Assembly (NCBI GenBank): GCA_029209985.1 | Contig: JARGNZ010000026.1 | Span: 1-35,441, forward strand | Direction: 5' to 3' | From: Parvibaculaceae bacterium | GTDB lineage: Bacteria; Pseudomonadota; Alphaproteobacteria; Parvibaculales; Parvibaculaceae | DNA length: 35,441 nucleotides | In this document: piece by piece, positions 25,438 through 35,252 of the stretch | How the letters are laid out: the number at the start of each line of letters is the position of its first letter | Position numbering within the stretch: the stretch's first letter is position 1 | Notes under the pieces: generated by a model | Database searches by the model: none | Told to the model about the DNA's origin: nothing | Seen by the model: the letters and a program-made list of their open reading frames with translations, nothing else | Program-made: the position numbers and the translations under genes

Positions 25438-25836
25438 TTATTCAGCAGGTGCTTCTTCAGCAGGAGCCGCAGCAGCTTCAGCAGCGGCAGCCGCAGCGTC
25501 TTCAGCTTTTTGCTTCTCAACTTCGATGCGCTCAAGCGCTTTAGCACCTGGCTTACCTTTGTTCGGATTGTTGCTCGCTTTACGCTTCATCAAGCCAGCC
25601 GCATCAAGAAAACGTGCCACACGGTCTGTTGGTGTTGCACCAGTGCCGAGCCAGTAAGTAGCGCGCTCTGTATCCAACTGCACCCGCTCTCCGCTATCTT
25701 TTGGAAGCATTGGGTTATAGATACCAATTTTTTCGATGAAACGACCATCACGCGGTGAACGCACGTCAGCGACTACGATACGGTAGTAAGGACGCTTTTT
25801 AGAACCACCACGGGCCAAACGGATCTTCGTTGCCAT
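25438..25836 (-). CDS. rpsP: 30S ribosomal protein S16
   Basis: 132 residues. The S16 core occupies about 1-85 ([42 protein letters not shown]). After it comes a low-complexity Ala/Glu/Pro tail ([21 protein letters not shown]), a common alphaproteobacterial feature. It begins 108 bases after ffh and ends 50 bases before rimM, in the conserved cluster order. Confidence 0.98.
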
Positions 25837-33089: not shown

Positions 33090-33674
33090 TTATACTTTTT
33101 TGAGACCGCGTAGAATATCCATCGCATCATCTTCACTCGGATGTGGATTGGTGAAGGGGGTGAAATGCGACTGATGTATGACACTTTTATATTGATTGAG
33201 CGCCCAGATCACACTTGGAAAGGCTAAGTCCTGCCAAGGGATATCTTCCCACGCAAATAAGCCTACCTCTAAACTTTCCATACCCGGAGAAAATTCAGGC
33301 GTCACCAATTCCGCACGATACATGATGTGAACTTGAGAAATATGCGTAACGTTATAAAGCGCTAGCATATCGCCAATGCGGATGTCGGCATTAGCCTCTT
33401 CAAAAGCCTCTCGTTTGGCCCCTTCCTGTGTCGTTTCATTCTGCTCCATGAACCCAGCCGGCAATGTCCAATACCCCCGACGTGGCTCAATCGCCCGTCT
33501 GCACAAGAGAATTTTGCCACCATGCGCCACAACAGAACCCACAATAATTTTTGGATTCACGTAATGAACAAACTCACAATGATCGCACACAGCCCGAGAC
33601 ATCTCGTCGCCCTCAGGCACCTTATCTGAAAAAGATACACCTAAAGTTTCAGTACCTTTTGGTTCATCAGACAT
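33090..33674 (-). CDS. Nudix hydrolase
   Basis: 194 residues. The Nudix box GX5EX7REUXEEXGU is present at 74-96 (GFMEQNETTQEGAKREAFEEANA) with Asn in place of the final Gly, a variant seen in this subgroup. Before it, CDHCEFVHYVNPKIIVGSVV (30-49) looks like a zinc-ribbon remnant with two cysteines as in NADH-pyrophosphatase-like Nudix proteins. GGGAGGG six bases before the ATG at 33674 supports this start. The substrate (NADH, ADP-ribose or another nucleoside diphosphate) cannot be told from sequence. Confidence 0.92.
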   Translation of the reverse strand: MSDEPKGTETLGVSFSDKVPEGDEMSRAVCDHCEFVHYVNPKIIVGSVVAHGGKILLCRRAIEPRRGYWTLPAGFMEQNETTQEGAKREAFEEANADIRIGDMLALYNVTHISQVHIMYRAELVTPEFSPGMESLEVGLFAWEDIPWQDLAFPSVIWALNQYKSVIHQSHFTPFTNPHPSEDDAMDILRGLKKV

Positions 33675-34033
33675 ATATTCCCTCCCTTTACGCAGCTACG
33701 CACGCCTTACAATCTACCCACACCGCCCCAACGTGGCCATCAACACTACAGCAGTCATCCGAACACGGAACGTCACCAATCCATGCCTGTTTTTGTGCGA
33801 AGTGCCTATAAATTACCCATCTAGGGAAATCTTCCGGCCACAGAGCGTGATCCCAAGTTTATACTTGGCTTATCGCCTTCAAATCTATAAGAGTTTCGCA
33901 TACATGAATTTTATTGAACCGTTACGTTCATAAATTCGATCTGGGAGTAAGGCTGCTCTTCGATCTTTTAACAATCGTACCAGGCGCAGCATGTGTCCTC
34001 TGCAATGTCGCGTCGATTGGAGGACTATAAGAA
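33675..34033. other. Intergenic region between Nudix and MarR-type genes
   Basis: 359 bases, AT-richer than the coding parts, divergent promoters expected for both genes. The short frame 33733-33933 has no ribosome binding site and no recognisable product. A small GAAC/GTTC inverted repeat lies near 33917. No other structure seen. Confidence 0.45.
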
Positions 34034-34720
34034 ATGGCTCGTACCGCCAATAGTTTTGATCTTGATAAATCCCTAAGTCACCTTCTACGCCGCACTCAGC
34101 AATACGCGTATGACCTCTTTACCCAAAACCTCAGCAAGACAGACCTGACCCCACGCCAGTTCGTGGTTCTATTGGCCGTCTCTGAAGAAGAAGGCTTGAG
34201 CCAGACCGATTTGGTAAACCGTACAGGTATCGATCGCTCCACACTCGCCGACATGATCAGCCGTATGATTAAGCGCGGCCTTTTGGCGCGCCAACGTACC
34301 GCACAAGATGCCCGTGCAAATTCAGTGCGCCTAACCGCTGCAGGCCGTAAAGCCCTCAACAGCGCACAGCCAAAAGCCGGTGCTGCTGAAGAAACACTTT
34401 TGGCCCTGATCCCAAAAACAGTGCAAAAAGACCTGATCCGCACCTTAAGCCAGCTTTCAAACGCTGTGCAAGCGGCAAAACAAGAAGCTGACATTGCCCC
34501 GGCCCGCAAAACAGCGGCCAAAAAGGCTCCAGCGAAAAAAGCACCTGCCAAGAAAGCCGCGCCAAAAAAGACTGTCGCCAAAAAAGCCGCAGTGAAAAAG
34601 AAAGTCGCTGCGAAAAAAGCACCTGCCAAGAAAGCGGCCCCAAAAAAGGCAGCCGCTAAAAAGCCTGCAGCAAAAAAGACAGCGGCCAAAAAAGCCCCTG
34701 CAAGAAAAGCTAAGCGCTAA
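34034..34720 (+). CDS. MarR-family regulator with histone-H1-like Lys/Ala-rich tail
   Basis: 228 residues. Residues 1-150 form a MarR winged-helix protein: [20 protein letters not shown] (dimer helix), [67 protein letters not shown] (wing with DxR). Residues 157-228 are an unbroken Lys/Ala/Pro tail of repeated AKKAPAKKA-type units, like eukaryotic and chlamydial/Bordetella histone-H1-like proteins. A 72-residue tail of this kind should give strong non-specific DNA binding. GGAGGA lies about eight bases before the ATG. No neighbour suggests a target. A strong terminator follows. Confidence 0.9.
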
Positions 34721-34805: not shown

Positions 34806-35252
34806 CTAAACAGAAATATCCAAAATACTGCCGGGACGCTGAAGCGGGGCTTCACTCTCTTGCCCAGCACGCACATGAGCGAAGGGCGCTTCACGGCGCA
34901 AAGAAGCCACCGGCTCTGATCCCGGCGCAGTTTTGGCAAGCGCCTCAGCCGCATCGGCCTCAGCAACCAAAGAAACAAATTCAACCGAGCTTGGGGCTTG
35001 CGCGTTCGACACCGATTGCGACGGCGTCACCTCATGCGCGGACCGTGTTGCATGAGCCTCCTCAAGCTCACGCGCCATGCGCTGGGCTTCCGCACTGATC
35101 TCAATTTTGACAGCCGCATCTTGCGCCCGCACATCGCGCGACGGACGCGGCACATCTCTCTGCTCAGCGCTCTTTTGATAAGCCTGAGTGGTCTGCGTGC
35201 GCATTGATTGGAGCTGCGCCAACAATTGAGGGGAAATAGTGTCGGTGTTCAT
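34806..35252 (-). CDS. Hypothetical protein with conserved-looking C-terminus
   Basis: 148 residues, polar and Ala/Glu/Ser-rich, with no membrane segment or signal peptide. The N-terminus (LLAQLQSMRTQTTQAYQ) and the stretch VKIEISAEAQRMARELEEAH are helical; the middle (about 75-125) is probably disordered; the end PGSILDISV is compact and hydrophobic. Two-ended architecture with a short C-terminal tag suggests an adaptor or export-type protein, but no family is recognised. No strong ribosome binding site seen. It converges on the MarR-type gene. Confidence 0.5.
   Translation of the reverse strand: MNTDTISPQLLAQLQSMRTQTTQAYQKSAEQRDVPRPSRDVRAQDAAVKIEISAEAQRMARELEEAHATRSAHEVTPSQSVSNAQAPSSVEFVSLVAEADAAEALAKTAPGSEPVASLRREAPFAHVRAGQESEAPLQRPGSILDISV

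Follow-up and report, generated by a model that had tools for sequence, protein, structure and literature searches.

A conserved alphaproteobacterial MarR-family regulator with a flexible, lysine-rich, H1-like tail

The window analysed here is a whole stretch of 35,441 nucleotides from a Parvibaculaceae bacterium (assembly GCA_029209985.1, contig JARGNZ010000026.1, positions 1 to 35,441). It encodes a MarR-family regulator whose winged-helix part is followed by a tail made largely of lysine, alanine and proline. The gene order in the window is ftsY, yciB, a NUDIX hydrolase gene (reverse), the MarR gene, a small genus-level open reading frame (ORF) and dsbE-ccmC-ccmB-ccmA. The MarR gene and the features around it are listed in Table 1.

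Table 1. Features at the MarR locus, in window coordinates (aa, amino acids; pLDDT, predicted local distance difference test score; dN/dS, ratio of non-synonymous to synonymous substitution rates)
Feature	Coordinates	Strand	Basis
MarR-family regulator with lysine/alanine/proline tail, 228 aa	34034..34720	+	ORF; Pfam MarR_2; orthologues in 38/40 genomes of the order
Shine-Dalgarno-like GAGGA, 9 nt 5′ of the ATG	34020..34024	+	sequence
Folded MarR part, residues 1–154	34034..34495	+	AlphaFold2, Foldseek, sister-species dN/dS
Disordered basic tail, residues 155–228	34496..34717	+	composition; pLDDT
78-bp imperfect tandem duplication in tail-coding DNA	34532..34707	+	Tandem Repeats Finder
TGAAC-N6-GTTCA dyad in the NUDIX/MarR intergenic region, speculative operator	33915..33930	+	
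12-bp GC-rich stem-loop, terminator-like, past the MarR stop codon	34743..34771	.	
NUDIX hydrolase, divergent, conserved neighbour of the MarR gene	33090..33674	-	synteny

MarR family membership is established by profile. Residues 37–95 match MarR_2 (PF12802; E=9.2e-15, 55 bits, cut-off 27 bits) and MarR (PF01047; E=2.1e-12, 47.1 bits, cut-off 24.6 bits), both above the curated cut-off. The AlphaFold2 model of the folded part has helices at residues 10–33, 40–51, 57–64, 68–81, 102–125 and 128–153 and a wing at 84–100, with pLDDT mostly 70–87. A winged-helix fold and a helical dimerisation domain are thus predicted from the monomer model. A Foldseek search with the model gave CouR (6c2s, with DNA) as the top match and MarR structures all through the list. 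The winged-helix dimeric fold is shared with PcaV (4fht), CouR, BpsR (6pco) and HosA (8aga), at about 26–32% identity over the structural matches. The profile for the Saro_0803 regulator (NF053777) scored 73.8 bits, under its equivalog cut-off of 200 bits. Judging by structure titles, the ligands of the closest solved relatives are aromatic acids or their coenzyme A esters. Arg19 of the window protein aligns with Arg15 of PcaV, which we take to be a ligand residue; an aromatic carboxylate is a candidate ligand, as a lead only. Unlike the window protein, none of these four regulators has a lysine-rich tail to our knowledge.

Residues 155–228 comprise 29 Ala, 28 Lys, 8 Pro, 3 Arg, 3 Thr and 3 Val, with no Asp or Glu, a bias far above chance expectation. 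Residues 154–227 have pLDDT below 50 and are predicted to be disordered. In the tail-coding DNA, a 73-nt block is repeated 78 nt downstream at 84% identity, and the tandem unit is present in 2.3 copies with an 83% match. A sequence-only reading of this DNA had described a winged helix followed by 72 residues of Lys/Ala/Pro, encoded by repetitive DNA. The tail length was right to within two residues, Pfam places the MarR domain as claimed, and the repeats are there. That reading also spoke of fusion to a histone-H1-like tail. The architecture stands, that is, a winged helix plus an H1-like tail, but it includes no domain homologous to H1. Profile PF07382 (HC2, histone H1-like) gives the tail alone 34.5 bits, below the cut-off of 40, and its NCBIfam counterpart NF038052 gives 35.1 bits, below 135. 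With these scores, and no folded domain predicted in the tail, fusion to a real H1 or HC2 gene is ruled out. Because the HC2 profile match lies under its cut-off, "H1-like" describes composition, not family membership, and the tail is better seen as a low-complexity polycation grown onto the protein end. Also ruled out are a nucleoid-associated protein of the HU/HupB kind (no HU match; the fold is MarR) and a chance or frame artefact (comparison with the sister species shows that the tail stays in frame and that conservation of the folded part reaches 98%). The protein is an ordinary MarR-type regulator with a long, flexible, positively charged H1-like tail.

The gene is a single conserved alphaproteobacterial MarR regulator and not a random paralogue. 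An order-level survey found one MarR orthologue per genome in 38 of 40 genomes. All those examined with a 3′ end on the contig have a tail of Lys, Arg, Ala and Pro, mostly of 29–52 aa. Among named relatives, the one closest to the genome of the window is "Rhodobiaceae bacterium NORP139" (L039), and named matches at 64–73% are mostly Parvibaculum, Tepidicaulis and other Rhodobiaceae/Parvibaculaceae. Further relatives came from a class-level search, with true orthologues told from other MarR proteins by gene order. A syntenic orthologue lies between NUDIX/yciB/ftsY and the dsbE/ccm genes, as the window gene does. Several conserved neighbours flank the gene in 12 alphaproteobacterial families, which form the syntenic sample (f1, f4, f5, f61, f86, f88, f111, f116, f118, f121, f140 and f161). 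Matches in f8, f62, f63, f74, f117 and f122, and a second match in genome G125, fall outside the conserved block and were dropped as orthologues; those from the six families have no comparable tail.

Ten of the 12 families have a basic tail: eight a lysine-rich C-terminal one, one a short arginine-rich C-terminal one, and one an N-terminal tail of Lys, Ala and Pro. Measured from the residue that aligns with position 146, lysine-rich C-terminal tails span 29–87 aa in f1, 54–59 in f61, 45–50 in f86, 49–136 in f111, 73–78 in f116, 47–51 in f118 and 106 in f140. In f4 they measure 47, at least 388 and 857 aa. The longest seen, in locus L104 (G172:C111:15000-19800), has 857 residues of Lys, Arg, Ala and Thr, 526 of them Lys or Arg; that of its congener (L105) runs for at least 388 residues up to the contig end. 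In f5, genus g9 has arginine-rich tails of 20–23 aa and genus g273 has none. The sequence-only reading had set its proposal against the prospect that homologues generally lack the tail; nearly all syntenic orthologues keep one. Such tails are not a general feature of MarR proteins, since seven others encoded by this genome lack one.

Family f121 bears the tail at the opposite end. Two of its genomes (G160 and G422; loci L178 and L179) encode about 90 Lys/Ala/Pro-rich residues N-terminal to the MarR domain, opening with MAKATKVTKKARKPVAKN or similar, and the protein stops right past the domain. In a sister genus (G406, locus L180) both ends are basic and short, the N-terminus being MAKPAKAKKPAPRSGVKSVRK and the C-terminus KAPAKAPAKRRK. 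Two gene fragments in G334 resemble this two-tailed form. To judge from these sequences, the pattern looks like tail relocation through a two-tailed intermediate. This end swap is the strongest evidence here for selection on a flexible polycation as such.

Comparison with the sister species shows how differently the two parts evolve. For the MarR part (residues 1–148), dN/dS is about 0.018. The tail alignment has 16 gap codons, all in frame, and 11 non-synonymous changes, with synonymous change saturated; these figures are rough, the repeat alignment being uncertain. The tail has a net charge of +30 in the window protein (228 aa in all) and of +31 in its sister-species counterpart (232 aa). 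Variable tail length had been anticipated from the repeats, and it holds both for this pair and across orthologues, where tails range from 20 to 857 aa. Tail length evolves through in-frame duplication, with net charge persisting. On a tree of the syntenic orthologues, three changes separate "any basic tail" from "none", and four rows are tail-less. The basic terminus looks old in the gene and lost now and then, on a tree whose root is not established and several of whose branches are long. Selection seems to act on charge and flexibility and not on sequence, length or terminus: the polycation would be selected independently of position because it is retained across families, keeps its charge as length changes, and has swapped ends.

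We propose, with a probability of roughly 0.6, that the polycationic tail raises the non-specific DNA affinity of a conserved MarR regulator, speeds its search and prolongs its residence at the operator, charge and flexibility being what is selected. The MarR dimer would read its operator through the winged helices, and each protomer would add a tail of about +30 net charge leaving from the dimerisation end. The dimer would then hold about +60 on flexible arms that could slide on, or hop between, nearby DNA; the raised non-specific affinity would give a quicker target search and a longer stay at the operator. The dimerisation domain of the MarR fold includes the N-terminal as well as the C-terminal helix, and we infer the dimer geometry from that fold. 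Because both terminal helices sit there, either terminus could serve for a tail; tails from either end would exit the same region and reach DNA beside or beyond the operator.

Precedents come from other bacterial tails. HupB lacking its PAKK/KAAK tail loses nucleoid association and enrichment in chromatin immunoprecipitation sequencing (PMC5676037), and lysine repeats hold TopA more stably on DNA (PMC5676037). KPAA peptides of AlgP bind DNA in vitro (PMC9239181), and bacterial DNA-binding proteins are enriched in lysine-rich low-complexity regions (PMC6821194). By the precedent of HupB and TopA, increased residence on DNA would be the most economical reading, with the tail expected to bind DNA in the cell and to affect regulation.

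Several points weigh against this proposal. Basic tails also bind RNA, polyphosphate or ribosomes. Orthologues in families f88 and f161 and in genus g273 of f5 are tail-less, so the core regulator can work without a tail. Orthologue tails of 29 and of 857 residues are also hard to square with one finely tuned role.

One way to account for such lengths is neutral low-complexity growth, in which replication slippage in repetitive, A-rich coding DNA would create the tail and extend it, selection doing no more than tolerate it since the protein already binds DNA. The tandem duplications in the tail-coding DNA, the spread in length with no sign of constraint, and the similar tracts on unrelated proteins of the genome (see below) speak for such growth. 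It accounts for the lengths but not for the retention of the tail in 10 of 12 families, its rebuilding at the opposite terminus in one of them, or the seven tail-less MarR proteins of the genome. Nor does it explain why the sequence turns over with charge conserved, or why the tail is never net acidic, acidic residues being nearly absent from the repeat tract. We consider it unlikely. Still less probable is a tail whose main partner is not DNA but, for example, polyphosphate, RNA or a storage granule, an interaction that would place or sequester the regulator. AlgP is a parallel, and a WS/DGAT-like lipid enzyme of the genome bears a similar tail, but in comparable cases the tail is again thought to be the nucleoid-binding part, and what remains of the window protein is a domain for binding DNA, not granules.

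The protein could also be a true nucleoid-associated protein, an abundant dimer that coats or bridges DNA across the genome and draws modest specificity from its MarR domain. Linker histone H1 has the same layout of winged helix plus K/A/P tail, and the 857-residue tail seems far beyond the need of a gene-specific repressor. Yet this is an ordinary single gene with a terminator-like end, nothing points to high abundance of its product, the home order has mostly short tails, and some orthologues have none. Such a role, possible above all for the 857-residue form, is improbable for the gene at large. Another unlikely reading is a functional linker-histone counterpart built on a MarR dimer, which would nucleate sequence-specifically at operators and then, with each protomer supplying tens to hundreds of basic residues, form bridges or spread on DNA. 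If it held, tail length (20–857 residues, at either terminus) would be a freely evolving dial between local repressor and chromatin-like silencer.

Eukaryotic linker histone H1, a winged helix followed by a K/A/P-rich disordered tail, is monomeric and binds nucleosomes. It shares no homology with the window protein, and the bacterial form is convergent. Mycobacterial HupB and Streptomyces HupS resemble the window protein in having a folded DNA-binding domain and then a disordered, H1-like lysine tail; HupB without its tail no longer binds DNA stably in vivo (PMC5676037). They differ in being abundant, architectural proteins of HU fold, whereas the window protein is a MarR winged helix and presumably operator-specific. 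AlgP (AlgR3) and PhaF of Pseudomonas have C-terminal tails of KPAA type, and in AlgP tail length varies with repeat number (PMC9239181), but their N-terminal part is helical or granule-binding and not a transcription-factor domain. Actinobacterial topoisomerase I has a lysine-rich C-terminal tract reported to stabilise it on DNA (cited in PMC5676037; PMC7398561); it is an enzyme and not a regulator. Among bacterial proteins, HU, topoisomerase I, AlgP and PhaF are thus already known to have lysine-rich tails. We found no paper on a MarR protein with a lysine-rich tail, which is weak evidence of novelty given that subscription literature was mostly outside the search. Here the tail sits on what is expected to be a gene-specific transcription factor. 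At one fixed genomic place, nature offers a series of tails of none, 20, 40, 80, 136, at least 388 and 857 residues, plus an end swap. With a similar folded domain throughout, this series makes it testable how a disordered polycation alters the search, residence and regulatory reach of a transcription factor.

Unrelated proteins of the same genome with such tracts, assigned by reading their sequences, are an aconitase (also used as a search query), a WS/DGAT-like enzyme and probably CarD. The aconitase (L118:6809-10342; contig C43 at about 39808-43341) has a lysine/alanine-rich, H1-like N-terminal extension of about 269 residues; its gene lies about 6 kb downstream of the MarR gene and about 4 kb past the window end. 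Where the 5′ end is intact, aconitases of the order have an in-frame K/A/P N-terminal extension of about 156–269 residues, mostly starting MAKK, and most have no start codon at the extension junction. Among 25 aconitases from other families none has the extension, bar short K/P stretches in f116. No paper was found on an H1-like extension of aconitase, which may be a stranger find than the MarR tail. Upstream of a CarD-like regulator (L119:1145-2405, reverse strand) lies a reading frame rich in lysine and alanine and interrupted by a run of N; together the two frames probably encode a single CarD whose N-terminus bears a long basic extension. The WS/DGAT-like acyltransferase (L079:85-1842) ends in a lysine-rich tract of about 70 residues, recalling granule-to-nucleoid tethers of the PhaF type.

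As for the flanks of the MarR gene, the stem-loop past its stop codon suggests a single-gene transcript, and a sigma-70 promoter scan gave no match. The arms of the TGAAC-N6-GTTCA dyad are kept in the sister species and the spacer differs; the dyad is absent from the output of a repeat search at minimum length 8. As a candidate shared operator, an upstream motif search gave the element GTGCATATGATGATA in Parvibaculum relatives; it was dropped, being no clear dyad and, in the window, weak or absent. The element CGGGTGCATATGATGATA is conserved between the NUDIX and MarR genes in Parvibaculum (e.g. L050, at about -155) and is likewise weak or absent in the window. The ORF between MarR and dsbE (34806-35252, reverse strand) encodes 148 aa and occurs in the sister species at 67% identity; it was not detected in the other syntenic loci and is a genus-level insertion. 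Elsewhere in the window, a ribosomal protein S16-like ORF (25438-25836, reverse strand) has an alanine/glutamate-rich C-terminal extension, with a repeat at 25451-25506.
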